This document shows, one piece after another, positions 4,099 through 63,669 of a stretch of 64,000 nt of DNA. Position numbers and translations under genes: made by a program. The notes beneath the pieces were generated by a model that did no database searches, was not told where the DNA came from, and saw nothing but the letters and a program-made list of their open reading frames with translations. This DNA is from a virus, in IMG/VR virus record IMGVR_UViG_3300030108_004017, positions 1 to 64,000 of that record; one strand, given 5' to 3'. Each line of letters starts with the position of its first letter. The stretch's first letter is position 1.

Positions 4099-4160
4099 AG
4101 TTTCGTTCCTCTCGTTATTAGTTATAAATATCATCTAAAAAACTAAAAATCGAATTTTTG

Positions 4161-4563
4161 TGGAGGTGGCGGGAGTCGAACCCGCGTCCTGTTTATTTTC
4201 AATACAAAGTCATTCACAACTTAGTAAGATTTCAAATCGGTAGAAATCAACAAACCACCATATCCCATTTTACTCAGAATGGTCTAACTGATGAAATTTA
4301 TACTCTATCACACGAGTTGGTGTCTAACTTATTTTATGACCGAGTGTTAGACAACTCAGTAACTTATGCAGCGTATGCGTAAGTTGGTTGGTCATTACCG
4401 ATTGGTAACTCAACTGAGTAATCATACTCAGCCAAGTGCCAATCAATGTCCAACCCTTCTAGCGATAATTCGCCAATTTGGATTGTGAGTCTTTTGTAAC
4501 GAGACATACTCAATCTCTGTTGCACTTTATATCAAACAATACCAGTCGATACCAAGCACCCCC
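4161..4563 (-). ncRNA. ssrA: tmRNA
   Basis: A transfer-messenger RNA of about 403 nt. The 5' end GGGGGTGCTTGGTATCGACTGG-like start and the 3' end (GCGGGTTCGACTCCCGCC, then CACCTCC-A) form the tRNA-like acceptor and T arm: GGGGGTG pairs with CACCTCC, including one G-U pair. The tag reading frame begins at GCT (4432) and ends at TAA (4364-4366). It encodes 22 residues starting AEYDYSVELP and ending QPTYAYAA. The -AA end matches the ClpXP degron type. No complete CCA is encoded after the discriminator A. The tag is longer than the 10-residue E. coli tag. Confidence 0.92.
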
Positions 4564-14462: not shown

Positions 14463-17400
14463 TTATTTTTTTCCTATGTGAGCATAGTAACCATCACTCT
14501 CAATTACCAACCACTCATATCCACTCAATATTTCTATGTCTAATTTTTCGTTTTCGGAAGTCACTATAATGGTATGTGGTTGTTGATGGTATTTATTTTT
14601 ACGATATATATCTAAGAATTTATCAATATCTTTTTCATCTATTTTTACAAATGTATTTTCTTGTATCTCAACATCATCAATATCGATAATAAATTTATCT
14701 GGTAAAGATGGATTATTACTCAACAAACATCTTTGAAAAATTTTATTATCTTGTATTGCCTTTATACTTTTATGTTTGTTATCTCTATAAATTTTCTTTA
14801 TCCATATACCTTCGTGTGGACTAAAGTCTATAAAGTCATCACACTCTATTGTCTCAAGATTATTCTCATATAAGAACTTGTGTTCTTTGTACCATCTATC
14901 ATTTGAACCACCCCTTGAGTGTATAGTATGAAAGGTACAATGTCTCACACCACCATCATCACATATTGCCATATATTCATCGTGTCCCTCATATGTCAAA
15001 TGTAGTGATTGAAGTGTGTCCACTTTACAATTGATTGTACAGGCACCATTTAGGTGAATAAAATTTTCAGAATCATATTGTCTTTCTACTACAACTTTTC
15101 CATCCTTACCTATAAGTTGTACTTTATGTATTTCGTTTTCGTTAGGTACTTTTAGTCGTAAACAATATGTGTAAAGTAATCTCGGTACTTGAGTTCTACT
15201 TTGTTTACTTATCCAATCTTCTGTATAAATAATTTCATCATTGATAGTATAGATTGTTTGGAATTCATATTCTGCAGTACCAAAATTTATAAACCAAAAG
15301 TAAGGGTCACCAACTACATTGTGGTCAGCTTCAGACCTACATATAACAGCACCTAATCGTGGGTCTTCTTTCATATCAATCTGTTGATTCAATATTGTGT
15401 TTGGTAAAACTTTTGAAATACACTTATCAGTATCTTCTGGTATGACATCAAATATAAATTTATCCAAATCGTCTTTTAGGTAATGTAAAAATACTTCTTC
15501 GAGATATGCAGATGGTAGTCCATTTTTATGTGCCTTTTCAAAGTACTCATCAACACCAAATGCCCAATCTACTTTATCAAGAAACAAACTTGGTTCAACT
15601 ACAGCCCACTCCATACCGATTCCCCAAATTCCTTCTTTCCTACCACCAGGAAATTTTTGGTCTGTAAAAGATTGTACATACCCACTTTTACCTTGTAGTC
15701 TCATTTGGTCTTTCATCCAATCAAACTGACCTAAATCTCTATCGTCTAACTTTATATCAGATTCTATAATGTATGCCAAATCTTTACCCAACTCTCTTGC
15801 GAGTGCCAATCCGTTATGGATATTTGACATACATACAACTTGATGTCTACCAAGTGGTATTGGTATTTTTACAGATGCCCATTGGTCGTGTCTATCGTTA
15901 TATCCAGTAGTCCAATACACTGCATAATAAGAACCATATCGTCTGTCATATATTGTGTATCCATCCAAAACTCTTTCTTGGTCAATCAACTCATTTCTTT
16001 TATCGTATATAGAACCATCAATCATTTCTTGAATCTCTATTGGTATTGGACAATGTGATGCAACATATATTTCTTTACCAGTTTTCTTTAGTTGTTTTAT
16101 AGTTTCTATCATATAGTTTATTCGTTCTTCACCTTTTGGATAACCCGTAACTATAAAAACATCATTGTTGAATTTATCTTCAAGTTCTAAATTAGTCTTA
16201 TCGTATTTTTCTTCTTTCCAATTCCAATATGGTATGGAGTATATTTTACCATTATGTGTTAGTGGCCATTTTACTTCAGGTGGTAGTTCATCTTGTTTCT
16301 CTTCTACCTTATCATCTGGTAAGTATTGAGTATCGTGTGTATCACTAAAAGACACAACCTTATAACCATACTTTTGAAATGTATTGGTGAATGGTATCTC
16401 ACCCACAACGACATGCGACATATCCATATGGTCGGTATGTACATCACCAGATGCATATGGAAAAGTTCCACCAAACCATTCTAACAATTTATCTAAGTAA
16501 AATGTATTGGATAAAATAGCACCATCGTGTGAATGTGTAGTATGTAAATCCCAATACCCTTTCCACTCTTGACCATTACCCAATAAAGAAACTACAGCGG
16601 TATTTTCCTTTTCTTCAAATTTATCTATAGTGGCTTGATACCAACCATTAGATAAATAAACATAATCATCTGGTGTAAACATCCACCAATCATAATCATC
16701 TCTAAAATATTTATATGCATCATTGAATGATTTGTAATTCTTACCTTCGTTGTCTAATAAATTCAATACTCTAAATTTACCATTCTTTGTCTCAACACCA
16801 TTTATATAATTTAGATACTTGTACATCTCAGTATTTTCTGAATATGAGTTTACAATTATCGTGTCATATTTTCTACCACCATCAATTGAATGTTCCAATG
16901 TCATAATCTCTTTGAATGAATCGAAAATTTTATCTTTCTCCCAATACTGACCGTGGTCTGGCCAATCGTATCTGTATCCACTATTTTTTAGTCCATCTCG
17001 TCTTTGTCTATCACCACCCATCCAAGTACATATAACTTTACAAGAATCTACACCTTTACTTTTTGGAAATAATATTTTACTGATTTCATTCAACACTTCA
17101 TATGGATGAATTTCTTTAGAACACTCAAACATTCTATCAGTATCTTTATGTCGTGGACACCAATTCCAATCACCAGCATCAAACTCTTCATCTTTAAAAC
17201 AAGAATTACATACATTCTCATTGAACACTCTACCACAATCCATTTCAAAATTTGGGTCTGTAAATCCACTAACCATAACAACGGGTACATCCAATGACCA
17301 AGCCAACCAAGAAAGTCCTGAACTAATACCAATGAAACACTCACTATCTTTTATTATCTGTGCAGTTTCTGGTAAGGGTAGATGAGTCTTATCAACAATT

Positions 17401-17579
17401 CCTTTAGGTGGATGATTACCCATATACTCACCACTATCCCAATCTACTTGATGAACCTCATAACCTTTGTCAATCATAAAATCAACAACTGTTTGCCATC
17501 CATCTTCCCTATTCCAATACTTTGCCTGTGCAGTAGAATGAATTGCTAAAGTAACATATTTTTTATTTGTATTCGACAT
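14463..17579 (-). CDS. Giant glycosyltransferase carrying the C-terminal half of a BAHT-type heptosyltransferase
   Basis: 1038 residues. Residues 1-190 match the C-terminal Rossmann half of autotransporter heptosyltransferase-type (GT-B, GT9-like) proteins: TLAIHSTAQAKYWN, FIGISSGLSWLAWSLDVP and a Cys pair (NVCNSCF). About 200-450 is a GT-A-like domain with DWWMFTPDDYVYLS. About 480-750 is a second GT-A-like region (IESDIKLDD). The C-terminal 290 residues resemble the linker and FkbM-adjacent segments of the neighbouring giant protein. The start ATG (17579) follows AAAAGGA inside the end of the DUF6165 gene. The missing N-terminal half of the heptosyltransferase lies at the C-terminus of the protein at 17937-21929. 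Probably modifies a phage or host glycan. Confidence 0.75.
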   Translation of the reverse strand: MSNTNKKYVTLAIHSTAQAKYWNREDGWQTVVDFMIDKGYEVHQVDWDSGEYMGNHPPKGIVDKTHLPLPETAQIIKDSECFIGISSGLSWLAWSLDVPVVMVSGFTDPNFEMDCGRVFNENVCNSCFKDEEFDAGDWNWCPRHKDTDRMFECSKEIHPYEVLNEISKILFPKSKGVDSCKVICTWMGGDRQRRDGLKNSGYRYDWPDHGQYWEKDKIFDSFKEIMTLEHSIDGGRKYDTIIVNSYSENTEMYKYLNYINGVETKNGKFRVLNLLDNEGKNYKSFNDAYKYFRDDYDWWMFTPDDYVYLSNGWYQATIDKFEEKENTAVVSLLGNGQEWKGYWDLHTTHSHDGAILSNTFYLDKLLEWFGGTFPYASGDVHTDHMDMSHVVVGEIPFTNTFQKYGYKVVSFSDTHDTQYLPDDKVEEKQDELPPEVKWPLTHNGKIYSIPYWNWKEEKYDKTNLELEDKFNNDVFIVTGYPKGEERINYMIETIKQLKKTGKEIYVASHCPIPIEIQEMIDGSIYDKRNELIDQERVLDGYTIYDRRYGSYYAVYWTTGYNDRHDQWASVKIPIPLGRHQVVCMSNIHNGLALARELGKDLAYIIESDIKLDDRDLGQFDWMKDQMRLQGKSGYVQSFTDQKFPGGRKEGIWGIGMEWAVVEPSLFLDKVDWAFGVDEYFEKAHKNGLPSAYLEEVFLHYLKDDLDKFIFDVIPEDTDKCISKVLPNTILNQQIDMKEDPRLGAVICRSEADHNVVGDPYFWFINFGTAEYEFQTIYTINDEIIYTEDWISKQSRTQVPRLLYTYCLRLKVPNENEIHKVQLIGKDGKVVVERQYDSENFIHLNGACTINCKVDTLQSLHLTYEGHDEYMAICDDGGVRHCTFHTIHSRGGSNDRWYKEHKFLYENNLETIECDDFIDFSPHEGIWIKKIYRDNKHKSIKAIQDNKIFQRCLLSNNPSLPDKFIIDIDDVEIQENTFVKIDEKDIDKFLDIYRKNKYHQQPHTIIVTSENEKLDIEILSGYEWLVIESDGYYAHIGKK

Positions 17580-17940
17580 AATCCTTTTCTTCAACAAGTT
17601 TAGATCCTGTTTTCAGATTTATCTTCTTTTTGATTTCGGCTCTTTCATCATTTGTAAAATATACTGCTCTTGCTAAATTTACAAATGTATCACCAAATTC
17701 TTTATCTTTTTCCAACACTCTAAGGTCATCTTCTATTCTCCACAACTTTTCATTTACATCTAACAAGTCTGTAAATAATCTATCATTTTCACTCATACCT
17801 ATTTCTTCCAATAATGGTTTTAGAGTTTGATATTCTAATTTGATGTTCTGTAATTTTTCTTCATTCATAACATTGAGTTGTTTTATTTTTAGTATAGTAA
17901 TTTTATCTACTAAATCACCATTTGGAATTTCTACTTTCAT
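17563..17940 (-). CDS. DUF6165-like protein
   Basis: 125 residues. Starts MKVEIPNGDLVDKITILKIK; the tail has ARAVYFTNDERAEIKKKINLKTGS, characteristic of the small DUF6165 family, mostly helical. It overlaps both neighbours: its start overlaps the stop of the 1330-residue glycosyltransferase and its end overlaps the start of the 1038-residue one. It sits exactly where the heptosyltransferase is split, so a scaffold or partner role is likely. Function unknown. Confidence 0.7.
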   Translation of the reverse strand: MKVEIPNGDLVDKITILKIKQLNVMNEEKLQNIKLEYQTLKPLLEEIGMSENDRLFTDLLDVNEKLWRIEDDLRVLEKDKEFGDTFVNLARAVYFTNDERAEIKKKINLKTGSKLVEEKDYVEYK

Positions 17941-20900
17941 AATTTTACCTTTGGTTTTATCTCTACAAAATCTAAACCTAATATTTCGGTTGCTGATTTT
18001 TGTAAAGGAATTTTTCTAAAATCTTGTTTATTTCTTGTAAGGTCTATTTCACCTTTATCATTTTTGTACCAACCAATATGATAACTTGCATAAGTATTAT
18101 CACCATATTGTCCTGGCTCTAAATAATTAATATCTTTATAATTGTTCTGAAACAGAAAGTTTTTGAATGTAGAAACATAGACATTACATTTATGTTTTTT
18201 TCTAAACTCTTCCACATACGGAAACCACGCAATAGTATCTCCAAGTGACTTTGAATCAAATTGTATAGTTACATTTTTTCCATTCAAATCTAAATCTTCA
18301 GTATGTATCAATTCTTTATTTCTATAAACTACAACTCTCCAATTTATAAAATAGTGACGACCAGGTTTGTACCAATGATTAGTTTTCATTCTTATTTTTT
18401 CGGTTGGTACTTTATTATCTTTGTCAATAAAATGAATTAGGTAATCATCTTTTGAGTCACCATCTAATATTTCTACTTTACATCCATCTATAAAATCAAC
18501 AATCACTTTTTCTTTTTTCTCTTTATATTTTTTTGCAAATAAAATACCAGAACTATTATTTAGATAACCATCTTCAGTTGATGATGTTTGATTTAGTTTT
18601 ACATCATAACCAAGTTCTTGTAGTCTATAATAAATTTTATCAATCTTATCACCATCATAATTGAAGTGCCATTCTATTACCCATTGATTTACTTTTTGTA
18701 TATTCTCATCTGATAAATTTTCAAAAATAGAATACTCGTGTCCCTCAACATCAAATTTTACAACATCCACATTTCTAAATTTTTTCAAATACTCATCAAA
18801 ATTACAACCATCAACCGTAATAGTTTCATAGTCATCAAAAAAGTTTTGACTCAAATTATCAACTGACTCGTGATGTTTTGCATCATCTAATTCTATTGTG
18901 GATACTGATGTTGCACTTCTTGGTATGTTTATATCCACCTTGTAATCGTGAGTAGTTACCGCCTCATTTATTATTGTAACATTCGGTTCGTCCTCAAAAG
19001 TTTTCAATAAGTCTTCGTATGTATCTGGTACTGGTTCAAAACAAAATACTTGAGTTGCACCTTTGTTCAAAACATAGTCTGTAAAAACTCCACAACTACC
19101 ACCAACATCAATCACAACACTTTCATCATTTACAAATAATTCTTTTTCATAAATTTTCATATGATTCATTTCATAAAAATTATACCAATTATTATCTGTT
19201 GGTGAATTATGAAAATATCTATGTTGTTTATCAGAACCATATCCAATTTTTTTAGAAGTATAAAGTTCACCATTTGAATAAACTTCAATTTCAAAATCCA
19301 TTTTTATTTCTTCAAAATCTACATATGAATTTGGTACAACCCAATAAGTTACATTAGAGTCTACCTTATCATACTTACAATGATATATTGTTAGATTAGT
19401 TGATGAGTCTTTTATTGATACAACAACATCATTCAATTCAGTACCAAAACTATATTCTATCTTATCAAGGTTATCTTCATTCTTACTCAACTCAACCTTG
19501 AACATATTAGAGTCAAATGTATTTATCAAATTTTGCATAACATCCAATGATTTATTAGCAACTCTTTTCCATTGAAATTCATTTCTCAATAATACAGAAT
19601 CGTGTATAGCCTTTTCTTTATACTCTGTATAATTTTCATAGACATCTCTCATAACTTTACCTAAGTGGTCAAAGTCTGGTTCACAATAATTACCAGGTGC
19701 TTTATAGTTGAAAGTTTCTTCACCTTCAACTGCTGGTCTTTCATCTATAATATCAACTAAGTGTGCATAGTCTTTTGCAAATTGTAATTGTGCACCCCAA
19801 TTACTACAAATTGACGGAGTACCACAAGCAAGTGCCTCTATCAATGGTAAGTTCCAACCCTCACTTCTTGCACAAGATAAAAATACATTTCCTTGTTGTA
19901 TGTAATTTATATATTCTTCTCTACTCGGAAAATGTAATACTTTTATTCGGTCATCCTCTAAACCAAAATGTTTTAGTCTTTCTTCTGTAGATTCCAATCC
20001 ATCAATAGAAAAGGGATTGTCTACTGATATAATCAAATCTACTTTTTCATCCATACCAAAAGTATTTAGAAATGTTTGTATAAGTTCTTTGGTACATTTT
20101 CTATAATCCCATCTACCAAAAATAATAAATTTGAATCTATCACTTTCTTCAACTTTCTTTGGATAGAATGTTTGACCATCAACTCCCTCAGTTACAATTT
20201 GTACCTTTTCTTCAGGATATCCTTGTTCTATAACACATTGTTTTGCCCACTCACTTGGTAACCATAGTTGGTCAAACTCTAAAAGTTTCTTGAAAAAACT
20301 ATCTTCATATCTTGTAGTTTCCCAAACATTGAATGCAATTTTAGGAATGTTATTTGGATGGTCTTGATAAAATAAATGATGATTTGCCTCATTCAAAACA
20401 ATGTAAACTTCATCTTCATTCTTATCCCATCTACCATCTTGTAGATGTTTATCTTGATACATTGGTTCTTTTATGAGTTGTTTATCTTTATTCCACAAGT
20501 ATTGTTGGTCTAACATCGTAGATATTTGATGTGTCATATAAGGTTCACTTTTATGTGGGTCGTTACTCATACCTTTCCAACCCTTACCGATAGTAAAGTT
20601 ACCAATCTTTACTGGTACTCTTTCGTCTACTTTTGTAAAATGGTCTCTTGCGTGATTATTATATCCTGTTGTACCTATAAAACTTGTTTCCAATCTAACA
20701 TTGAAATTATATTTTTTAGATTCTTTTACAGACATTATCCAATAATATTTGTAAAGGTATGTAGTCCATAAACATTTTTCAAAATGAGATTTTACCATTT
20801 TTATATGGGTGAGTTTTTCTTCACCCTCATCACAAGTTTCGTGAGTAAAATTTTCATCTTCACAAAAGACTATTATACTATAGTCATCTTTCAAATCATC

Positions 20901-21929
20901 TATTTCAAATTTTACATTTGCATAATCATCAATATTATTTACTCTAAAAACTACGAGGTCTGTATCTTTTTTTACATATGTTTCAAATACCAAATCAGGA
21001 TAAGTACATCTAAGTGATTCCATAGTATCAAAATCATCTGGAAAATTCTTCAATGCAACTACATTTATATTATCAAATTCTTCTAACACCACAAGTGAAT
21101 TAGTAATCGAATCACATAATGTCAATCCTTTTTCAAATCCATATTTAGGTTTAGGTGCATTATCTCTAATTACAGAAAATTTATTATCATCGTAATTCTC
21201 ATTATTTTCCCAAACATAATTTCCTGTAGTTTGTTTATCGTGTCTTCGTAATTTATAAATTGGTCTGTTTACATAAAGTGATTTACCAAGAGTTTGTAAT
21301 ACAGATAACTTTACAAAGTCTTCGTGTTTACCATAATCTTTTATTTCTTGTGGAAAATATTTTAGGAAATCAAAGTCTTTACCAGGATTTTTATAACATC
21401 TCAACCCACCCCAAACATATCCAACTCGTGGTTCTTTATCTCTAAAAGGTCCACCAGCAATTGATTTATTTAGTTCATAGTCTTTATGATATTCAACAAA
21501 ACTTTCATAATCTTTATAATCTACCATAGATGTATTATGATAGTTATTCCATTCAAAACTATCCTTGTAGAATTTAGTAGAGAAGTGTAAGTTATGGACA
21601 TCAGGAAATCTTGTATAAATATGATTTATATACCACAATGCATCAGGCATCAAAACATCATCTGCATCCAAACCAACTATAATATCACCATCACAAAATT
21701 TATGTGGATTCCAATATAGTTCTTGTTTGTGATTTTGTGTTATAACTTTTGTATGGTAGTTTGTTAGTTGATATTTTTTTAGAGTTATCCCAATATCACT
21801 TTTGTCAAAATCATCAGTAACTACCCATTCTGTATTTGGATATAACTTTATTGCCTCTTCTACAGATTTACTAATCTCGTCAAAGTATTGTGAGTTATTA
21901 TAAAATGATGTAACTAAATTTATTTTCAT
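17937..21929 (-). CDS. Four-module glycosyltransferase/methyltransferase fusion
   Basis: 1330 residues. About 1-260 is a GT2 domain (VTSFYNNSQYF, then GLDADDVLMP). About 410-830 is a GT4 GT-B domain (IIFGRWDYRKCT; SCARSEGWNLPLIEALACG). About 935-1160 is an FkbM-type methyltransferase (VVIDVGGSCGVFTDYVL; VDVVKFDVEGHE). About 1170-1330 is the N-terminal half of a heptosyltransferase-like GT-B (DSKSLGDTIAWFPYVEEF). It ends at KPKVKL, just before the second Rossmann domain would begin. It is likely a multistep glycan assembly enzyme. No signal peptide or membrane helix. Confidence 0.82.
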   Translation of the reverse strand: MKINLVTSFYNNSQYFDEISKSVEEAIKLYPNTEWVVTDDFDKSDIGITLKKYQLTNYHTKVITQNHKQELYWNPHKFCDGDIIVGLDADDVLMPDALWYINHIYTRFPDVHNLHFSTKFYKDSFEWNNYHNTSMVDYKDYESFVEYHKDYELNKSIAGGPFRDKEPRVGYVWGGLRCYKNPGKDFDFLKYFPQEIKDYGKHEDFVKLSVLQTLGKSLYVNRPIYKLRRHDKQTTGNYVWENNENYDDNKFSVIRDNAPKPKYGFEKGLTLCDSITNSLVVLEEFDNINVVALKNFPDDFDTMESLRCTYPDLVFETYVKKDTDLVVFRVNNIDDYANVKFEIDDLKDDYSIIVFCEDENFTHETCDEGEEKLTHIKMVKSHFEKCLWTTYLYKYYWIMSVKESKKYNFNVRLETSFIGTTGYNNHARDHFTKVDERVPVKIGNFTIGKGWKGMSNDPHKSEPYMTHQISTMLDQQYLWNKDKQLIKEPMYQDKHLQDGRWDKNEDEVYIVLNEANHHLFYQDHPNNIPKIAFNVWETTRYEDSFFKKLLEFDQLWLPSEWAKQCVIEQGYPEEKVQIVTEGVDGQTFYPKKVEESDRFKFIIFGRWDYRKCTKELIQTFLNTFGMDEKVDLIISVDNPFSIDGLESTEERLKHFGLEDDRIKVLHFPSREEYINYIQQGNVFLSCARSEGWNLPLIEALACGTPSICSNWGAQLQFAKDYAHLVDIIDERPAVEGEETFNYKAPGNYCEPDFDHLGKVMRDVYENYTEYKEKAIHDSVLLRNEFQWKRVANKSLDVMQNLINTFDSNMFKVELSKNEDNLDKIEYSFGTELNDVVVSIKDSSTNLTIYHCKYDKVDSNVTYWVVPNSYVDFEEIKMDFEIEVYSNGELYTSKKIGYGSDKQHRYFHNSPTDNNWYNFYEMNHMKIYEKELFVNDESVVIDVGGSCGVFTDYVLNKGATQVFCFEPVPDTYEDLLKTFEDEPNVTIINEAVTTHDYKVDINIPRSATSVSTIELDDAKHHESVDNLSQNFFDDYETITVDGCNFDEYLKKFRNVDVVKFDVEGHEYSIFENLSDENIQKVNQWVIEWHFNYDGDKIDKIYYRLQELGYDVKLNQTSSTEDGYLNNSSGILFAKKYKEKKEKVIVDFIDGCKVEILDGDSKDDYLIHFIDKDNKVPTEKIRMKTNHWYKPGRHYFINWRVVVYRNKELIHTEDLDLNGKNVTIQFDSKSLGDTIAWFPYVEEFRKKHKCNVYVSTFKNFLFQNNYKDINYLEPGQYGDNTYASYHIGWYKNDKGEIDLTRNKQDFRKIPLQKSATEILGLDFVEIKPKVKL

Positions 21930-34251: not shown

Positions 34252-34673
34252 AATACTTCTATCTCTGTACCTATGCCTCTTTTGTCGTGGTCTGTTCCAA
34301 CTACGATTGTGTAGTATCCAGGATTTATATCAGATGTCCATTCAGTTCTGTAAAGTTTCCAAACATATGTTTCTGTTCGTTCTCTACCATCTTTGAATCT
34401 ATCTAATGCTAATGGTGTTTGATGTACCAACTTTCCATTTTCAGCAAACATATACAATCTTGTTTTATCTCGTTGTACCTTGTACCTAACCTTTATACAA
34501 GGTCCACCTTTTCTATCATATGCTCTCCAAGCAACAATTGGTGTTTCATCAAAGTATTCCATTGATGGTGGTTTTACTTTTGGTATTGCATCTGGATCTG
34601 GTCTTAGTAATACAAACATTACACACCCAAATATACCAAAGTATAATAGTAGTTCTTTTATTTTATCATCCAT
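34248..34673 (-). CDS. Membrane-anchored unknown protein (141 aa)
   Basis: One N-terminal helix (LLLYFGIFGCVMFVLL), then a periplasmic beta-rich domain (VRYKVQRDKTRLYMFAENG; YYTIVVGTDHD). Coupled to the pilin-like gene just upstream. Possibly part of the pilus-related system; inference by position only. Confidence 0.6.
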   Translation of the reverse strand: MDDKIKELLLYFGIFGCVMFVLLRPDPDAIPKVKPPSMEYFDETPIVAWRAYDRKGGPCIKVRYKVQRDKTRLYMFAENGKLVHQTPLALDRFKDGRERTETYVWKLYRTEWTSDINPGYYTIVVGTDHDKRGIGTEIEVL

Positions 34674-35116
34674 TATTGTGCTATATACCTCACTGGTTCT
34701 TCTGCTAATTCAAATGATGTAGAGTCATATGTGTAATACCATATCTCATCGTCAATTCTAAAATGGTATACTCTACCCTCACCATCACTTTCGATGTTAT
34801 ACTGCCATTCGTCATCCTCGTCAGGTATACCTAATACTAAATTTATATTCATATTACGAGTTCTACCAAATGTTGATAGAGGATTATAAGGCCAAGATTC
34901 TGTTCCTACTTCTAAAAGTTTGTCACCAGCATATTGTTCGGCACCTGCCCATACTTGGTCTACCACTGCCTTTTCAGCTCTAACAGTTGCTCTGTTTAGA
35001 ACGGCGGACATCTTAGGTACTGCAACTGCAGATAATATTCCTAAGATGACCATAACCATTACTAATTCTACCAACGAAAAACCTTCATTCATTTTTTCTT
35101 TCAGTAGTTTTTTCAT
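34673..35116 (-). CDS. Type IV pilin-like protein (147 aa)
   Basis: Prepilin signature: basic leader, cleavage after Gly, then FSLVELVMVMVILGILSAVA with Glu at +5, followed by AVPKMSAVLNRATVRAEK. The C-terminal domain is predicted beta-rich. Mature size fits a type II secretion pseudopilin or type IV pilin. Third to fourth member of the tandem array. Confidence 0.85.
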   Translation of the reverse strand: MKKLLKEKMNEGFSLVELVMVMVILGILSAVAVPKMSAVLNRATVRAEKAVVDQVWAGAEQYAGDKLLEVGTESWPYNPLSTFGRTRNMNINLVLGIPDEDDEWQYNIESDGEGRVYHFRIDDEIWYYTYDSTSFELAEEPVRYIAQ

Positions 35117-35123
35117 TCGATTT

Positions 35124-35594
35124 TTATTGTCCTTGTAAATCAGGTCTGTATACGACTTGATTTGGTTTGTAAGGTGGATTGGAATATCCTATCTCACCTG
35201 TTGTTTTATCATAAGTCCAAATTGCTAAACTATCTTCTTTTCGTCTGTGTACGATTGAATTTTTATAATCATTACTTGCCTGACCTGTATAAATCCAATC
35301 ACTATCTTTCATCTGAGTCATCAAAGTAGATTGTGTTTTATCATATGATGGTGGTACTTTATTCAAGGCATCAAATGGATTGTCTGGCCAACTAACCACA
35401 CCCTCTTCAATGAATTGTTCTTGACTATAAGTATCTAAGGCCGCGACTAAATTCACAAGGATTCCTTGTTCTGCTGCGGCCTCGGATTGTCTTACAATAT
35501 CAGCAAATCGTGGTATAGATACTGCTGCGAGTATTCCCACAATTACCATCACCATAATGAGTTCCACTAAAGTAAACCCGTTCCTATTATTCAC
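35124..35594 (-). CDS. Type IV pilin-like protein (156 aa)
   Basis: Prepilin start RNG|FTLVELIMVMVIVGILAAVS with Glu at +5 and SIPRFADIVRQ. The globular part has VSWPDNPFDALNK, shared with the next gene upstream. Overlaps that gene by 8 nt. Processing needs a host prepilin peptidase, as none is seen here. Confidence 0.88.
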   Translation of the reverse strand: MNNRNGFTLVELIMVMVIVGILAAVSIPRFADIVRQSEAAAEQGILVNLVAALDTYSQEQFIEEGVVSWPDNPFDALNKVPPSYDKTQSTLMTQMKDSDWIYTGQASNDYKNSIVHRRKEDSLAIWTYDKTTGEIGYSNPPYKPNQVVYRPDLQGQ

Positions 35595-36036
35595 TTGACA
35601 GACTTTCTCTACTGCCTAATGTACCAGTAGTATCTGAATCTGTTCCTGTGTTTATTCCTGCATCATACTCCCACTTCCATCTGGTGTTATCAGACCTTTG
35701 ATGGGTAATGTATGCTGGGTCACCATCTACAAATGTCCACTCATTATCTGTGTCGGCATTTGTACCGTCAGTAGTATAAGTTTGTGGTTTATCTTTTAGT
35801 GCATCAAATGGATTGTCTGGCCATATTCCTCTACCACTATCTACCAACTTATGGATAGCATAGTTGTCAAGAGCGACACCGATATTACTTATAACTGCAT
35901 CTTCAGCAGCTTCTTCTGCCTTTTCGATGGTATCCAAGTATCTCGGTATGGCAACTGCTGATAATACTCCTAATATTATCATAACCATTATCAACTCAAT
36001 AAGAGTGAATCCGTTTTTGTTTTTTAGTTTCTTCAT
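35587..36036 (-). CDS. Type IV pilin-like protein (149 aa)
   Basis: Prepilin start KNG|FTLIELIMVMIILGVLSAVA with Glu at +5 and AIPRYLDTIEK. Contains RGIWPDNPFDALKDKP, nearly the same block as its downstream neighbour, so the two are paralogues. A Thr/Gly/Ser-rich C-terminus follows. Confidence 0.88.
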   Translation of the reverse strand: MKKLKNKNGFTLIELIMVMIILGVLSAVAIPRYLDTIEKAEEAAEDAVISNIGVALDNYAIHKLVDSGRGIWPDNPFDALKDKPQTYTTDGTNADTDNEWTFVDGDPAYITHQRSDNTRWKWEYDAGINTGTDSDTTGTLGSRESLSSE

Positions 36037-36078: not shown

Positions 36079-36717
36079 TTATGGTACTAAAGTTTTATTT
36101 AGTTCTGCAGGGTTCTCAGTATCTATTACGATAAGTGCAGGTGCTTGAGCATCTGTACCTGAACCACTACCTGGTATTACCAAGTAAGCATATGAACCAT
36201 CCTGAAATGGGGATGATATACCATTGTTACCAAAGTCTGATTTGAAGTCTAATGCACCATCTACATCAAATACTACAGATGTTTCATCATTCATCCAATT
36301 ACCTTGTAAAGCATCATCGTCATCAGATGCAGTTGAAAATACATAAACAAACTCACCTAAGTCTGATTCGTAATTATCTTTAGCATCAAGAATAGTTTCA
36401 ACATATATCTCTAAGGCTTCATCAGTAAGTTGTCCTTCGGATAAATCAACACCACCAACTGGTTGGTCGTATTTAGATTGTCCAGGAAATCTTCCCTTAC
36501 CCTCTTCGGATAATGTTTGGTTATAAAAATTATTAGCAACCGTTACAATTTTATCGATATTAGCGATAGTCTTTTTCTCTTTTGCACCTGCACCAATTTG
36601 CCCAAACTTGGGAGCTGCAGTTGTGGCTAATGTAGCCATCATAGCGGTTGTAACTGCGAATTCAGCAAGTGAGTTTCCTCTCCTACTCTTCAGTTTTTTC
36701 ATTATGTTTTTGAACAT
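36079..36717 (-). CDS. Divergent pilin-like protein (212 aa)
   Basis: Start ATG at 36717 follows GGAGATAAT. Leader KSRRG, then NSLAEFAVTTAMMATLATTA (Glu at +5, less hydrophobic than the other three). The C-terminal domain is larger and Asp-rich (DASDDDDALQGN-like area). First gene of the array. Its pattern recalls major pilins/pseudopilins with a processing Gly, but it is atypical. Confidence 0.7.
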   Translation of the reverse strand: MFKNIMKKLKSRRGNSLAEFAVTTAMMATLATTAAPKFGQIGAGAKEKKTIANIDKIVTVANNFYNQTLSEEGKGRFPGQSKYDQPVGGVDLSEGQLTDEALEIYVETILDAKDNYESDLGEFVYVFSTASDDDDALQGNWMNDETSVVFDVDGALDFKSDFGNNGISSPFQDGSYAYLVIPGSGSGTDAQAPALIVIDTENPAELNKTLVP

Positions 36718-36749
36718 TATTATCTCCATATTAGTTGTTCAACAAGTAT

Positions 36750-37727: not shown

Positions 37728-38948
37728 TTATAAATAAATATCAATCAACTTATCAATTCCATCAAAAACATCTTGAGTATCTATGGTCTCAATATCATTC
37801 CAATCTGATAAGTCTTTACATTCTATATAAGGATTATAATTCCATTCTTTGTTTTGTATGTCTATAGATGTATCATTATATATTCCAGTATATGGGCCTT
37901 CCTTATATACTCTAACAACATTATCTTGAAATTCAGAATATGGTTTAGAATAATTACCAACCATAAGTACAGGTTTATTTAGTGCCCAAGCCAACCAAGA
38001 TAATCCAGATGGTAATCCAATAAAAAATTTACAATGATGTAGGTCGTTTACTCTATCTGATATTGGTATGTAACCTGTTTTATTTATATCTGTCTTTGGA
38101 GTTTTGTTACCACAATAAATACCAGACTCTAAAGATATACTTACTACTTTATATCCTTTTAGATTTAGATAAGGTACGACATAATCCCAACCACCAATTT
38201 TATTCCAATACTTTGCCTGTAAGGTAGAGTGTGTTGCAATACAAACATAGTCTCCATCTATTGTTGGTTCTTTTATCCAACTTGGATTTATTTCTGGTCT
38301 ATCAAAATTAGTTTCTATTCCTAATATACTACTTGGTACTTCTTGTAAAGTTATCTCTCGTGGATGTGGGTTTTCAGGCCTTCTTTTATTTTCGACCAAC
38401 CATTTATTATCTTCGTATTGACCAACTCCAAATATAAAATCATATTTTTCCCATCTACCCTTTCGTTCAGGTCCACCCCAAACATCCCTTTCACTTACTA
38501 CATTTTTTATCTCATTTTTTCCGTTCTTGAACAACGAACAAATAAATTCAGTAGCAAAGATATCTACTTGGCAGCCCTTTTCTTCGACCCACTTTTGGAT
38601 AGTGTTTACCCAAGCTATGGCATCTCCCATTGCATTAGAATTGAAGTAACATAATACTTTACTATCTTTAGTGAGTTCAAGTTTGTAGTGTTTCTCTATA
38701 CCAGAAAATGCTTCTGTAATCCAAATATCTACATCTTTGGGATAACATAGATTGACATCAACCCACATATTATTTTGTATGATTGTGCTATGTAACAATT
38801 CACCATCAGACTCAAACCTTATATTGTAACTCGTTTCAAAATCACCAGTTACTTCTACAAATGGTTTTGAGACTTCATCGTGGAATGGTTTATTATCCAT
38901 CATCGAGTGATTCCATTTCACTTCTATTTTATTCTTGAATTGTATCAT
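37728..38948 (-). CDS. Intact BAHT-type heptosyltransferase-like glycosyltransferase
   Basis: 406 residues; the ATG after AAGGAAAAGTT was chosen because a longer frame runs through the tRNA-Cys gene. N-terminal half: CYFNSNAMGDAIAWVNTIQ. C-terminal half: IATHSTLQAKYWNKIGGWD and FIGLPSGLSWLAWALNKP. This is a complete copy of the enzyme found split between the proteins at 17937-21929 and 14463-17579, and serves as an internal reference for that split. Family members (GT9-like) transfer ADP-heptose to autotransporters or LPS. Confidence 0.78.
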   Translation of the reverse strand: MIQFKNKIEVKWNHSMMDNKPFHDEVSKPFVEVTGDFETSYNIRFESDGELLHSTIIQNNMWVDVNLCYPKDVDIWITEAFSGIEKHYKLELTKDSKVLCYFNSNAMGDAIAWVNTIQKWVEEKGCQVDIFATEFICSLFKNGKNEIKNVVSERDVWGGPERKGRWEKYDFIFGVGQYEDNKWLVENKRRPENPHPREITLQEVPSSILGIETNFDRPEINPSWIKEPTIDGDYVCIATHSTLQAKYWNKIGGWDYVVPYLNLKGYKVVSISLESGIYCGNKTPKTDINKTGYIPISDRVNDLHHCKFFIGLPSGLSWLAWALNKPVLMVGNYSKPYSEFQDNVVRVYKEGPYTGIYNDTSIDIQNKEWNYNPYIECKDLSDWNDIETIDTQDVFDGIDKLIDIYL

Positions 38949-38960
38949 AACTTTTCCTTG

Positions 38961-39031
38961 AGTCGTGGGTGAGATTCGCACTCACATAAACGGATTTGCA
39001 GTCCGCCACCTATCTCTTCGGTCACCACGAC
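38961..39031 (-). tRNA. tRNA-Cys (GCA)
   Basis: 71 nt. Acceptor arms GTCGTGG/CCACGAC pair perfectly, anticodon loop GGACTGCAAATCC reads GCA, and the T arm is GTGAG/CTCAC. No CCA is encoded. It lies 5 nt after tRNA-Ala. Confidence 0.9.
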
Positions 39032-39036
39032 ATATG

Positions 39037-39109
39037 TGGAGCTGACAGGAATCGAACCTGCGACCTCTTCAGTGCAAGTGAAGCGCTCTCCCAACTGAGC
39101 TACAGCCCC
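39037..39109 (-). tRNA. tRNA-Ala (TGC)
   Basis: 73 nt. Starts GGGGCTGTAGCTCAGTTGGG; anticodon loop CTTGCAC between CTTCA/TGAAG. The acceptor contains the G3-U70 pair, the identity element for alanine. Discriminator A at 39037; no CCA encoded. Confidence 0.95.
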
Positions 39110-40611: not shown

Positions 40612-40724
40612 TCTTCCCTACGACCAAAATTATTCTTCTCTATTCTCTTCTTCAGATGTCGTTTGTATTGATATAAAAAAATTATCTTCTTCAACATCTC
40701 TATAAAATCTCTAATGATTCCCAT
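40605..40724 (-). CDS. Small basic protein (39 aa)
   Basis: Starts MGIIRDFIEMLKKIIF; very basic end (KRHLKKRIEKNNF). It overlaps both neighbours by a few nt. No family recognised. Confidence 0.5.
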   Translation of the reverse strand: MGIIRDFIEMLKKIIFLYQYKRHLKKRIEKNNFGRREEW

Positions 40725-41613
40725 TGGTATATCCAAGTTTTATCTTTATATAATTAACTATCTGTTCAGCAACTTTTATGTCAGTATATTTTTCCATACC
40801 TTGAAATCCTGGTGATGAGTTTATTTCACATATCTTATATCCACCATTATCATAAAGTAAATCAACTCCACTAATATCTAATCCCAACAAGTTAGTAGTT
40901 TCTAATGCAAGATATTCCATTTGTTCATCTATCTCTATTGGTTTTGCCCCACCACCTCGTGTAATGTTTGCTCTAAAATCTCCATCATTAGATTCTCTTT
41001 TCATACCACCAACTACCTTACCACCAACAACCACTATCCTAATATCTTTTCCGTGAGAATCAGAAACATATTCTTGTAGTATAATATTGAATCTATCATT
41101 TATCTGTTCCATCATATCTACAAGTTGGATAAAGTTTCTCTTATTCTCTGCAAGATATACTCCCTTTCCGTGTGTACCACTTAGTGATTTTACCACGATA
41201 GGAAACCCAATGTTCTTCTCTACATATGTTGGATTTATTGGATTCCTAACTAACATAGTTTTTGGGTGAGGAATATTATTTTGTGCGAGTATCTGCATCG
41301 TATATAATTTATCCTTTACATTATCTATGGCATCACTACCATTGATAAACATAACACCCATTCTTTCCAAATGCCTGAAGACTGCCTTCTGGTAATATGT
41401 AGTTGAGCTTCCTACTCGTGGGATTACAAAATCAGGTATTGATGCGTACTCGTTTGCTACCTGTACCGATTTTCTGTTTTCTCTACTAACAAAGATATCA
41501 ACCTCGTTAGGATGTACCATATATGCATCAATGCCTTCACTTTCAAAGCATTCTATCAATCGTGTGGTCTCGTATGATGGATTACTTTGTGTAGAAAATA
41601 TCCACCCTTTCAT
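40711..41613 (-). CDS. RimK-like ATP-grasp ligase
   Basis: 300 residues; ATG follows the upstream TGA by 1 nt. ATP-grasp features: KTMLVRNPIN, FPIVVKSLSGTHGKGVYLAENK (phosphate loop), IILQEYV, DIRIVVVGGKVVGGMKR, and the metal triad ...SGVDLLYDNGGYKICEINSSPGFQG. RimK adds glutamate to ribosomal protein S6, so a phage copy might modify host or phage proteins or make small peptides. Target cannot be inferred. Confidence 0.88.
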   Translation of the reverse strand: MKGWIFSTQSNPSYETTRLIECFESEGIDAYMVHPNEVDIFVSRENRKSVQVANEYASIPDFVIPRVGSSTTYYQKAVFRHLERMGVMFINGSDAIDNVKDKLYTMQILAQNNIPHPKTMLVRNPINPTYVEKNIGFPIVVKSLSGTHGKGVYLAENKRNFIQLVDMMEQINDRFNIILQEYVSDSHGKDIRIVVVGGKVVGGMKRESNDGDFRANITRGGGAKPIEIDEQMEYLALETTNLLGLDISGVDLLYDNGGYKICEINSSPGFQGMEKYTDIKVAEQIVNYIKIKLGYTNGNH

Positions 41614-41614
41614 C

Positions 41615-42088
41615 TCAGAAGTATACCCTTTCACCTGTACCTACATATTGTCTGTACCACTTCTTCTCAACATCTCTCCATACATACGGGTCTTCTGAAT
41701 TTTCTTTCCACTTGAATTGTGAATAGTATTCTCTATCTTTACGAAGTAAGTTAGCTCTATGTGATGAATGAAATGGTTCGTAACCTAACCACTCTGGTAA
41801 GTCAATTGGCCACTTCACATCATAGAACTTCATATTATTGTTGTATCCTCTATCAATCCACTCTTGTATTATTATATTGGTATAGTGTTTCAACAAATCA
41901 ACATGCGGTCTCCACATAACTGTCGCAGGATGATTCAACCAACCCTTATATGGTTTACCATCCTTACGAGGTTTCTGTTCAATCGCATTTATGATTTGCA
42001 TTCCCTCGACTCTTTGTTTACCGAGTCTACGCCAATCTAATACTTTTGCAGATTCTTCAAATGATTTATACGGGAGAAATGTTTGCAT
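41615..42088 (-). CDS. DenV-like / MSMEG_6728-family protein
   Basis: 157 residues. Starts MQTFLPYKSFEESAKVLDWR, then RLGKQRVEGMQI, NHPATVMWRPH and FHSSHRANLLRKDREYY. Matches the family often annotated as pyrimidine dimer DNA glycosylase (T4 endonuclease V-like). Likely in repair of UV damage, sensible in marine phages. The assignment of catalytic residues is not certain. Confidence 0.75.
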   Translation of the reverse strand: MQTFLPYKSFEESAKVLDWRRLGKQRVEGMQIINAIEQKPRKDGKPYKGWLNHPATVMWRPHVDLLKHYTNIIIQEWIDRGYNNNMKFYDVKWPIDLPEWLGYEPFHSSHRANLLRKDREYYSQFKWKENSEDPYVWRDVEKKWYRQYVGTGERVYF

Positions 42089-54816: not shown

Positions 54817-55106
54817 ATTTTTATCTTACCCTTTAGTATATCCCAAAACATAATCCAATCTGATATTTTAGCCTTTATTGGATTATGAAAAGCTGCTGGT
54901 TCGTTCTTCTCATACAAATAATGTCCTGTCCAAGCAAATGGATAGATTATAAATGGTATGATTGGTAGTAACCAATAAAATCCACTATAAAACATATAAC
55001 TAACAACAAATAGTGTGACCCATTGACCGATAAAATGTAGTCTACGATTCTTTCTATTTTTATGTAGTGATAGATAATCTTTGTAATAAGATTTTCTTAT
55101 TGACAT
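54813..55106 (-). CDS. DUF962 / Mpo1-like membrane protein
   Basis: 97 residues. LHKNRKNRRLHFIGQWV, WTGHYLYEKNEPAAFHNPIK and SDWIMFWDILK match DUF962 (Mpo1-like), including the histidines H(KN)...HF and GHYLYEKN. Fungal Mpo1 is a dioxygenase in 2-hydroxy fatty acid breakdown. Two membrane helices sit between. A phage copy would act at the host membrane; substrate unknown. Confidence 0.75.
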   Translation of the reverse strand: MSIRKSYYKDYLSLHKNRKNRRLHFIGQWVTLFVVSYMFYSGFYWLLPIIPFIIYPFAWTGHYLYEKNEPAAFHNPIKAKISDWIMFWDILKGKIKI

Positions 55107-56344
55107 ACAATCAAATCCTTTTCATATGTCTTCAAAGACTTTATTTCAAAGTTGAATATGTCTAATTCCATAGTACCTAACTCTGCACTTTCTTGTAGTA
55201 TCTCTGATAAATTTACAATTATATCGAAACTCTGTTGTGTAACTTTACTACAATCGAATCTAATCACGATGTTATTTGTTGGATTAGTATGTTGTGTTCT
55301 AATTCTTTTACTCAAATCAAACTGAGTATTTTGTTGTTCATCCTCAATGTATTTGTTTACATAAATACCTTTATGTCCAACCCAATCACCATATATGTTA
55401 TCACACCACGGCTCTAATTCTCTTAGAAATTCATAGTTACAATTCTCTACCACAAAACCAATATTATATTTTGGTGGAATGATAGGATGTAATTTTTCAT
55501 CGTGTTTTACTAAGTGTCCCCATTTACGAACAAAATTTCTTGTACTTCTTTCATTCTGTTTCAACCACTCATCCGATTCTCTATTTCTCATAAAAACTTG
55601 TCCGTTGGGATTTCGTATGGCCCCATCTTTGAATCGTGAACCTCTACAAGTCATATGATATACAAATCCTTTCCAAGTTTGTATAAACTCGTAACCATTT
55701 AGTTTGAAACGATTGAATATATCAGAGTCTTCTTTTGATTGAGGAGCGTAGAGTGGGTCGTGTCCACCGATAGATTGAAAGTCCTCTTTATATATAGCCC
55801 AAGGTGCGAATATACCATTGGTTCTATCGTGATTCAATAAGAGAGGACCATACTTGATTCCATCCCTTCCTGTCTGTAAATCTTCCACCGTTTTTAATAA
55901 TTCCTCTTCTTTGAACTCTTCAGGTTCTATACCAAAGTCTAATAATATTTTCTCTGGCCCATCAGGATGTAGTGGTGGTTCTATTCTTGTGAATGATACT
56001 ACTTTTCCCTTTTCTAATAGTCTATCAATTTCTTTATCTGAATTGGGTGTTAGATACATATCCGCGTGAAATATCATAACAATATCATTTGTTGCATATT
56101 CATTTATTAGTGTATCGTATAATATAGTATGTCCAAGTCTTTCAGGACCTTCGTTGATATGAAGTTTTACATTCTCATCTTCTTTCATTATACTTTGAAC
56201 CCATTCAACCGTACCATCCGTACTTGCATCACTCGCGATACAAATTTCATATGGTAGTGAAGAGTTCTTTCGTATACTTTCGTATGCCTGTTTTAGATAT
56301 TTTAGATTATTTCTACTTGGTAGTATGTAACTTATTGATTTCAT
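55097..56344 (-). CDS. GT2 family glycosyltransferase (415 aa)
   Basis: The GT-A domain covers about 1-260: ISYILPSRNNLKYLKQAYESI, SDASTDGT, MIFHADMYL (DxD-like) and HDPLYAPQSKEDSDIF (acceptor-side acid). The C-terminal 130 residues are a separate domain (RTQHTNPTNNIVIRFDCSK). First gene of the sugar cluster. Sugar donor unknown. Confidence 0.85.
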   Translation of the reverse strand: MKSISYILPSRNNLKYLKQAYESIRKNSSLPYEICIASDASTDGTVEWVQSIMKEDENVKLHINEGPERLGHTILYDTLINEYATNDIVMIFHADMYLTPNSDKEIDRLLEKGKVVSFTRIEPPLHPDGPEKILLDFGIEPEEFKEEELLKTVEDLQTGRDGIKYGPLLLNHDRTNGIFAPWAIYKEDFQSIGGHDPLYAPQSKEDSDIFNRFKLNGYEFIQTWKGFVYHMTCRGSRFKDGAIRNPNGQVFMRNRESDEWLKQNERSTRNFVRKWGHLVKHDEKLHPIIPPKYNIGFVVENCNYEFLRELEPWCDNIYGDWVGHKGIYVNKYIEDEQQNTQFDLSKRIRTQHTNPTNNIVIRFDCSKVTQQSFDIIVNLSEILQESAELGTMELDIFNFEIKSLKTYEKDLIVCQ

Positions 56345-57305
56345 CGAATCTCCTATTCATTATATAAATATATACTTCTTCCCCAAAATGTTTATTAAAA
56401 TTATATTTTGCCTGTTTTGATACAGAATTATAGAAGTGTTTATTGTCTCGTAACTTCTTTACAAGTTTCTTTGCTCCTAATAAGTCATCTGGCTCTACTG
56501 ATGTTTCTGGAAAACATTTCCATTGTGTATTGGTATGTTTATTTCCAACACAAGGTATTCCCCAATACGCACAATTCAAATAAAATGTACCACCTATTGT
56601 ATTTGGATTCAAATGAACTGCATACTTGAAGTCTCGTATTGATTTCATCCAACCAAACCAATCCATATAAGGTAAATGATTGACCTCTTCAAAATATTTT
56701 TCTTGTTCGTTCATTTTACCCATACTTGGTAACCAAATTGGTACTCCTAAATCTCTTGCAACTATAAAAGAATTCCAACCACCATACCATCTAACAAAAT
56801 TACCACCTACCAATACTTTATCGTCTTTATCTTTATGTGGCAAGTCATCTAGCAAATCTGTTATCATAAGTGTTGGGTTTATGAAAGTTGGTTTACCTAA
56901 AAGACCTTCATAGTATTTTGCATCTCTATCATTATGTGCAAATATAAAATCTGCAGAAGTCATATTATTTACCATATGAATTTGTTCTGCAAATGGTAGG
57001 TCTTGAAAATACCAACTTGGACCTTCTTGCATAAATCCAACTTTTTTACACATCTTTTTTATGTTATCCATTTTGAATGGTATGTAATTCTTTGGTATGA
57101 TTACTATTCCAAAATCATATTCACCCATACCATCTTTATTCCAGCCCTCTCCAACATCTTCTGATAATGGATAATGGTCGGCATCAAGTGCACAAAACCA
57201 TGCAAATTCTGTTCTCATATTAGCGTGTTCACGAGTGACTTTACTCGTGAATCCCATCTCACTAAAAAATGCTACTTTATGTTTTGGTTTTTCTAAAGTC
57301 TTCAT
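56313..57305 (-). CDS. GT-B-like glycosyltransferase (330 aa)
   Basis: Starts MKTLEKPKHKVAFFSEMG. The C-terminal half has KVLVGGNFVRWYGGWN, PNTIGGTFYLNCAYWGIPCVG and a coil of basic residues, consistent with a GT4/CgeB-style GT-B fold. No clear E-x7-E. Overlaps GT2 stop. Confidence 0.65.
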   Translation of the reverse strand: MKTLEKPKHKVAFFSEMGFTSKVTREHANMRTEFAWFCALDADHYPLSEDVGEGWNKDGMGEYDFGIVIIPKNYIPFKMDNIKKMCKKVGFMQEGPSWYFQDLPFAEQIHMVNNMTSADFIFAHNDRDAKYYEGLLGKPTFINPTLMITDLLDDLPHKDKDDKVLVGGNFVRWYGGWNSFIVARDLGVPIWLPSMGKMNEQEKYFEEVNHLPYMDWFGWMKSIRDFKYAVHLNPNTIGGTFYLNCAYWGIPCVGNKHTNTQWKCFPETSVEPDDLLGAKKLVKKLRDNKHFYNSVSKQAKYNFNKHFGEEVYIYIMNRRFDEINKLHTTK

Positions 57306-58281
57306 ATGTTAGAAACCTCTTTTGATTGTGATATAAATTATTCAAATTACCCTTTGATAACACATTGAATTCTTTATACCAATTTGTTTGTCTTTTGAAA
57401 TGTGATTGTTTGGTATCGTCCTCACCCTTTACATAAAATCGTTTGTTTGGATGATTTCTATTGTGAACCTTTAGAATATTCTTCACAACATATTGTTTAT
57501 ACTGATTACCCATATGTAATCTCACACTCTCCAAGAATGCAGTATCATCACCATTCATAAAAACAGACTTTGGTATATTACAACCTGTCATCAATAATTG
57601 ATTGGTCATTACCAATCCACTACCATCAAACTTTGGAAAATTCAAATCGTATACTGATAAATCACCATCTGTCTCTGAATTTATCTCATTCATTCTTTCG
57701 AGACTCATAGTATTTCTGATTGACGAATCTTCTGTAAGTGCCTTTGGGTCAGCCATTTCATAAAATGGACTATCAGTAAACTTTGGATGTTCTAATACTC
57801 TCCAACTATCATCCCACATCTTTCTTATGGCAAATGTCACAATGTATCTTGGTACTGGTGAGTTATCCATTATGTGGTCAAGTGTTGGTAACATTTCTTT
57901 TGGTAGTAAACAATCACTTTCACCCCATATTGTATAATCATATTTGAGTGAGTTTACAGACTTATAATTTAGGTCTCTACGATAGTCTGACATTGTGTAT
58001 GGTGTTTCATCATCATCATAAACCTCATACTCAACAAGAAATCCTAATGATTCAAGTCTCGCAACTTGTCGTTTGAACCTAATTAAAAATTCGTGTTTCT
58101 TTACTTTATCAGTATCCATCTTTTCAAAATACTGACTCATATTATAAAATAAATCTATAGTTATATTTTCTTTATTGGTTATATAGTCCCATTGTACAAG
58201 AGAATCTATATACTCGGTTATCATATCAATTTCATAAAACATTATGTGACAACCTACAATGTATCTATATTTTATCTCCAT
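57277..58281 (-). CDS. Possible glycosyltransferase (334 aa)
   Basis: KYDYTIWGESDCLLPKEML is a possible GT-A DxD-type region (ESD). RYIVTFAIRKMWDDSW follows, then SGLVMTNQLLMTG. Context in the glycosyltransferase cluster supports the call; the family is not certain. Confidence 0.55.
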   Translation of the reverse strand: MEIKYRYIVGCHIMFYEIDMITEYIDSLVQWDYITNKENITIDLFYNMSQYFEKMDTDKVKKHEFLIRFKRQVARLESLGFLVEYEVYDDDETPYTMSDYRRDLNYKSVNSLKYDYTIWGESDCLLPKEMLPTLDHIMDNSPVPRYIVTFAIRKMWDDSWRVLEHPKFTDSPFYEMADPKALTEDSSIRNTMSLERMNEINSETDGDLSVYDLNFPKFDGSGLVMTNQLLMTGCNIPKSVFMNGDDTAFLESVRLHMGNQYKQYVVKNILKVHNRNHPNKRFYVKGEDDTKQSHFKRQTNWYKEFNVLSKGNLNNLYHNQKRFLTYEDFRKTKT

Positions 58282-59003
58282 AAGTAATTTGCCTTTGTTT
58301 GCATCAATATATTAGTATGATGTTTTTGTGGGTCATTGGGTATGGCATTGAAATGCCATATGTATCCTGGCCAATCGTCTGGTACTTCAAATCTTATTAG
58401 GTCTTGCATATTATATTCATATGGTAACCACATCATATCTACATTATGTTTTCTTGTCAAAAAGTTCAACATAGTTTGGTCTATACCACACCCAAGTCTT
58501 ACCAACCCCATAATTTTTGCAAAGTTTTCTGTAAAACATTCTTGTGCCTTTTCAAAAAATTCAGTATGGTGTTTTGAAAATACCATCATACCAGAATTGA
58601 AATACCTTGAGTAATTTAGTATTGGTTCTTCAGGAAATAAATTGTTTCTCCAATTCAATATTGACCTCACTACCCATTCACACGAACCAAAGTTTCTAAC
58701 CACACCAAATTTATCACCAACCACATCAAATATATTTGGTAAGTCTGGTGAGGGAATTGTATCTGAATCTACATACAAACATTTGTCCCATTCTTGTCCT
58801 GTAGCCTCCATCAACTGAGGAAAATACATTTTGTAAAAATTAGGTCTTATGTTTGGGTCATCAAATAGTGGTTCATTCAATACAAATAATTCTGTATCAG
58901 GTTTATCTTCTATCCAAGCCTTCCACACTTCTTGACTCAATTTGTAAGGTGTGTTTTTTGACCTATCGTCATTTTGTATATCAATCATAAAAACTACATT
59001 CAT
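58272..59003 (-). CDS. GT8-like glycosyltransferase (243 aa)
   Basis: LYVDSDTIPSPDL is the DxD motif, YFNSGMMVFSKHH is the GT8 FNSG block, GCGIDQTMLNFL matches the DQ block, and YIWHFN an end His. Fits GT8/glycogenin-type GT-A enzymes. Uses a nucleotide sugar; acceptor unknown. Confidence 0.75.
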   Translation of the reverse strand: MNVVFMIDIQNDDRSKNTPYKLSQEVWKAWIEDKPDTELFVLNEPLFDDPNIRPNFYKMYFPQLMEATGQEWDKCLYVDSDTIPSPDLPNIFDVVGDKFGVVRNFGSCEWVVRSILNWRNNLFPEEPILNYSRYFNSGMMVFSKHHTEFFEKAQECFTENFAKIMGLVRLGCGIDQTMLNFLTRKHNVDMMWLPYEYNMQDLIRFEVPDDWPGYIWHFNAIPNDPQKHHTNILMQTKANYLWR

Positions 59004-63457: not shown

Positions 63458-63669
63458 TCTATATCCTCTGAAAATACTTCTACACATAATACATTTGTAT
63501 CATTTATCATTACTATTCTACCATCCTTTAGTTCTAATTTAGTCATTTGACCTTGTTTTATTTTGGATGTCGATACACCCTCAAATGTTCTTTTCACTCC
63601 GCCAACAAAGTGAATTATCTGTGTTACATACTCACCTTTTGATTTTAGTGATGATTGTAAATCCCTCAT
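63454..63669 (-). CDS. Small beta-rich unknown protein (71 aa)
   Basis: Starts MRDLQSSLKSKGEYVTQII; contains SKIKQGQMTKLELKDGRIV. Coupled at both ends. No family recognised. Confidence 0.55.
   Translation of the reverse strand: MRDLQSSLKSKGEYVTQIIHFVGGVKRTFEGVSTSKIKQGQMTKLELKDGRIVMINDTNVLCVEVFSEDIE

Follow-up and report, generated by a model that had tools for sequence, protein, structure and literature searches.

Two viral genes that flank a third carry complementary halves of a TibC/BAHT-like glycosyltransferase (GT-B fold, family GT9), and sequence comparison and structural modeling suggest that the halves probably come together as a single enzyme that links two multi-domain proteins. The genes were analyzed within a 64,000-nt stretch, here called the window, comprising positions 1 to 64,000 of IMG/VR virus record IMGVR_UViG_3300030108_004017.

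The family profile TIGR04414 (hepto_Aah_TibC, NCBIfam) matches the last ~190 aa of a 1330-aa protein with its positions 7-194 of 374 (E 2.2e-32 for the whole protein); its positions 203-374 match the N-terminal ~170 aa of a 1038-aa protein (E 1.4e-51). The original prediction had named these termini the N- and C-terminal halves of a heptosyltransferase, and both assignments hold; we term them half A and half B. The two profile pieces are non-overlapping, almost gap-free and complementary. Scores are 112.4 and 175.6 bits for each half alone and 289.9 bits for both, so the curated cut-off of 200 bits is passed by the two halves together and by neither alone. TibC (PDB 4rap/4rb4) is the best solved structure for each, its residues 22-201 for half A and 216-385 for half B. 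Between the halves lies a DUF6165 gene (PF19662, 51.6 bits against a Pfam cut-off of 27 bits, profile 1-115 of 134, E 1e-13) that overlaps both neighbors as had been claimed, by a 4-nt ATGA on one side and, as read from the DNA, by 17 nt at the ATG of the 1038-aa gene on the other. Positions of all parts are collected in the table.

Features of the split glycosyltransferase locus and a related gene, in window coordinates
Feature	Position	Strand	Basis
1330-aa multi-domain protein: GT2, GT4, FkbM methyltransferase, then BAHT half A (C terminus)	17937..21929	-	Pfam + NCBIfam
BAHT half A: beta-barrel + N-lobe, residues 1137-1330, TibC 22-201 equivalent	17940..18521	-	profile, structure match, model
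Asp1231 codon (SLGD motif), equivalent of TibC candidate catalytic base Asp110	18237..18239	-	alignment; role from PMC4358343
ATGA (4 nt): DUF6165 start overlapping 1330-aa gene stop	17937..17940	-	read from DNA
DUF6165 gene, 125 aa, predicted four-helix bundle + disordered conserved C-terminal tail	17563..17940	-	Pfam, model
Purine-rich GAAGAAAAGG + ATG of 1038-aa protein, inside DUF6165 3' end, out of frame	17577..17592	-	sequence
1038-aa protein: BAHT half B at N terminus, further domains behind	14463..17579	-	Pfam + NCBIfam
BAHT half B: C-lobe, thumb region, putative iron finger, residues 1-176, TibC 216-385 equivalent	17052..17579	-	profile, structure match, model
Lys20 codon, equivalent of TibC Lys230 (sugar binding)	17520..17522	-	alignment; role from PMC4358343
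Iron-finger cysteines C124, C127, C141, C153 of 1038-aa protein	17121..17210	-	alignment
Divergent single-gene BAHT-like GT9 paralogue, no iron-finger Cys; outside split enzyme	37728..38948	-	profile, alignment

In TibC, residues 196-217 form a long loop between lobes at 98-195 and 218-406; the candidate for the catalytic base is Asp110, the K230A mutant is deficient in sugar binding, and a ferric ion is held by Cys339, 342, 358 and 370 (PMC4358343). Half A corresponds to TibC 22-201 and half B starts at the equivalent of TibC 216, and therefore the break falls inside the natural inter-lobe loop, in agreement with the claim that the enzyme is divided between its two lobes. The equivalents of the key residues are all kept, the catalytic Asp on the 1330-aa protein and the sugar-binding Lys together with all four iron-finger cysteines on the 1038-aa protein, and neither protein alone has the whole active site. 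Iron binding is putative; the cysteine spacing is C-x2-C-x13-C-x11-C in half B versus C-x2-C-x15-C-x11-C in TibC. The selectivity position occupied by Pro300 in TibC is a serine both in half B (Ser86) and in AAH (Ser294), which may allow a looser choice of heptose isomer.

Halves A and B share one reading frame. Many stops interrupt that frame across the DUF6165 stretch, so no fused or read-through product is possible, and read-through or frameshift fusion of the halves was ruled out; the joined stretch, once scored as a 2490-aa open frame with one TGA, is not an open fusion. Farther along the 1038-aa protein, residues ~480-760 resemble a recurrent domain of other phage glycan clusters.

The three-gene order, which the original prediction had suggested looking for in other phages, recurs with the same genes and layout in contig L004, which has 98.3% nt identity to the window. 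Between the two, half A shows 6 synonymous and 3 non-synonymous differences (pN/pS 0.11) and half B 3 synonymous and none non-synonymous (pN/pS 0.00); at this small divergence, so few amino-acid changes in the two halves have P = 3.5e-5 under neutrality. Amino-acid changes are strongly suppressed in both halves, and purifying selection has acted after the split. An artifact of assembly, sequencing or gene calling is very improbable, even though the contigs are metagenomic and relatives have a single ORF: the distinct contig L004 keeps the layout while carrying synonymous differences, the inserted gene is complete and conserved, the joining frame has many stops, and a second split lineage is present in two contigs. 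Relatives with both halves in one frame had been named as a sign of assembly or frameshift error. Most relatives are indeed intact, but because the inserted gene is complete and conserved and the L004 layout is identical, they do not point to an error here.

BAHTs were collected from viral-contig scans, a genome-contig scan and DUF6165 loci, which together form a sample rather than a census. Among the matches listed are ~218 other distinct full-length intact BAHT domains and two split lineages, the window/L004 lineage and a different phage pair, L176/L260 (L176:3555-7830 and L260:2-2447), split at the same hinge with no DUF6165 between the halves. In L176 the protein of the first gene (GT9-GT4-half A) closes with ...EIKPKIKGELYA, while that of the second (half B-methyltransferase-FkbM) opens with MRKSVCISIHSTCQCKYWN; the genes overlap by 8 nt, with a Shine-Dalgarno AAAGGAG before the ATG, within the hinge codons. 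L260 has 88.9% DNA identity to L176 and the same junction, with dN/dS values between the two of 0.31 (half A) and 0.17 (half B). Unlike TibC/BAHT, which is a single polypeptide, these enzymes occupy two ORFs in the window, L004, L176 and L260. DUF6165 was not found within the contig stretches examined of L176 and L260, and its absence between their halves shows that a split can exist without it. A tree joins the two split lineages with support of 17% only. Upstream domain order differs (GT2-GT4-FkbM in the window versus GT9-GT4 in L176/L260), a difference that leans towards two separate split events.

Uncultured phages commonly carry BAHT-type enzymes, a type described for bacterial autotransporters: each viral-contig scan gave at least ~570 stretches, against 4 records in the phages collection and 8 loci from one scan of genomes. 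The literature searched, with most subscription journals outside its scope, yielded no paper on BAHTs of phages. A 1288-aa ORF (L178:3238) has three stretches matching the BAHT profile, and is perhaps a tandem BAHT, or else combines a BAHT and a related GT9 domain.

The fold of the joined halves was predicted with AlphaFold2 as a single chain, half B following half A through an arbitrary, non-natural 119-residue linker (stops read as residues), from an alignment of 39 homologues, all intact. Most residues of the halves have pLDDT > 90 and most linker residues < 65, with pTM 0.79. Foldseek ranks TibC (4RAP) first among PDB matches to the full model, with a TM-score of 0.85 by target, and beta-barrel, N-lobe and C-lobe are present in the TibC arrangement, albeit across an artificial linker. 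Since the homologues are intact, a joined fold was likely beforehand, and the model shows compatibility rather than assembly.

We examined DUF6165 in other loci. Its phage neighbors are glycosyltransferases, sugar dehydratases/epimerases, sulfotransferases and methyltransferases, so that it sits among glycan genes elsewhere as in the window; what differs in the window is its place inside the hinge of the very glycosyltransferase type that it often neighbors or is fused to. A BAHT lies within ~4 kb in 24 of 80 DUF6165 loci, several of them divergent from DUF6165; this fraction does not count independent events, because some loci are near-duplicates. DUF6165 shares one 1585-aa chain (L293, 2343-7100) with an intact BAHT and with GT4-like and methyltransferase-like regions, and in L347, L350 and L358 a giant protein with an intact BAHT at its end has DUF6165 directly behind. 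From these associations, DUF6165 is probably a pathway partner of the BAHT enzyme, a small helical protein that probably helps the complex. DUF6165 is modeled as a bundle of four helices followed by a disordered tail, for which neither sequence nor fold gave a convincing relative among solved structures, nor did Pfam and the fold search give any endonuclease match; the literature searched held no mention of the family. The tail motif EEK-x-Y is conserved even where no gene overlaps the tail.

The tail also appears to provide starts for downstream genes. In 35 of 87 distinct unfused DUF6165 genes, the next ORF, if counted from 80 codons upward, starts within or at the DUF6165 3' end. For ~15 of these 35 the out-of-frame ATG is formed from the TAT codon of a tail tyrosine and the next G, just behind purine-rich Glu-Glu-Lys codons that we infer to act as a ribosome-binding site. 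Such loci, with different genes downstream, include L345-L424 and others. Otherwise unlike downstream proteins share similar starts: MSNTNKKYV (window), MSNTNCLVV, MSSTRAIVT, MSSTKKYNF and MKNTKCLIV. Because unrelated proteins begin alike, the start of half B very probably derives from the tail of DUF6165; supply of an out-of-frame start by the DUF6165 3' end would explain how half B has remained translatable.

The original prediction offered either a split enzyme, perhaps with DUF6165 as partner, or relics of a gene insertion. The former is favored, with the partner role a probable addition: key residues are kept, selection is purifying, a second lineage is split, and DUF6165 occurs fused to or beside BAHTs. 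Under this split-enzyme reading, halves A and B would associate non-covalently, with the active site arising where they meet, and the enzyme would tether both giant proteins into one glycan-building complex. The split would have been created or re-punctuated when the DUF6165 gene came into the hinge, its ATG overlapping the stop newly gained by half A, while a ribosome-binding region and ATG for half B came from its 3' end. A bolder version, which we think less likely than not, makes the split glycosyltransferase an assembly device, active only when the giants meet, and DUF6165 a portable partner gene that re-punctuates the gene behind it. If true, one catalytic fold would also lock a glycan-building complex together, and the ribosome-binding region and start at the DUF6165 3' end would let DUF6165 enter coding regions while the next gene survives.

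That an insertion broke the enzyme, leaving halves that persist only as tails of otherwise useful proteins, we consider unlikely. Such relics would suit the prevalence of intact relatives (~218 distinct, among the matches listed) and the presence of a second, divergent GT9 paralogue in the genome. Yet active-site and iron-finger residues are fully kept, both halves are under purifying selection in both lineages, and the paralogue, being remote and without the iron finger, is no like-for-like replacement. Quite unlikely, too, is a pure docking role in which the assembled halves join the giants and BAHT catalysis is secondary or lost: in both lineages the halves are fused to different glycosyltransferase/methyltransferase chains, which assembly would couple, but docking alone has no need of the catalytic residues that are kept.

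The history of the split may have taken either of two courses, entry of DUF6165 into a single BAHT gene at its hinge, or halving of two BAHTs that flanked it. The latter (BAHT-DUF6165-BAHT, each BAHT losing one half) we regard as possible though the lesser prospect; it bears on nothing but history and does not conflict with the split-enzyme reading. DUF6165 lies directly behind intact-BAHT proteins in L028, L347, L350 and L358, as it does behind half A here, but once selection bias is removed the halves show no unusual mismatch in relatives, in what is a weak test. A first identity-correlation signal for different origins of the halves vanished with sets not chosen by closeness; the negative correlation had been forced, because the comparison set was picked by closeness to each half separately. 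Different origins, which the original prediction had named as evidence against a split enzyme, thus left no sign in the unbiased sets, weak as this test is.

The window enzyme is like TibC/BAHT (TIGR04414, GT9; PDB 4RAP, 4RB4) in sequence, predicted fold, Asp, Lys and four-Cys finger; it differs in the serine noted above and in being divided over a pair of multi-domain phage proteins, TibC/BAHT being a single chain. TibC/BAHT forms a ring dodecamer and transfers heptose to an autotransporter. Split enzymes of phages are known mainly through homing-endonuclease insertions in replication and nucleotide genes. Examples in which, as in the window, one enzyme occupies two coding regions are NrdA of Aeh1 (mobE), a topoisomerase subunit of T4 (mobA) and the gene 43A/43B DNA polymerase of phage 25, and for two of these, NrdA and the DNA polymerase, the split enzyme has been shown to reassemble or be active, a precedent for the reading favored here (PMC2988022). 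The Aeh1 nrdA type has an intervening homing endonuclease, whereas the window has DUF6165, likely a partner gene of the same pathway, and L176/L260 have no intervening gene. Compared with these precedents, the class of enzyme is new, as are the repeated splitting at one hinge and the kind of gene that intervenes. A glycosyltransferase split in two lineages at one inter-lobe hinge, with different flanking domains, is a clean test case for whether GT-B lobes can work in trans, and the locus gives a first functional lead for DUF6165.

The single-gene copy in the window had been proposed as a direct intact reference for the halves. It is instead a remote paralogue, 36% identical to half B and 24% to half A by alignment, that lacks all four iron-finger cysteines; better intact references were found in other phages. 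Genes for tRNA-Cys and tRNA-Ala adjoin it (38960-39109).

Several other features of the window were recorded. A phage-encoded tmRNA (4160-4563) has the tag GNDQPTYAYAA. Three consecutive genes (34673-36036) have type IV pilin-like N-terminal methylation motifs (Pfam N_methyl), and a fourth (36079-36729) is similar by eye with no Pfam match. A RimK-like ATP-grasp ligase with its N-terminal domain is encoded at 40711-41634. The run of overlapping genes at 55097-63487, including an aminotransferase, a GT8 glycosyltransferase and several 240-415-aa proteins, is possibly a second glycan cluster.
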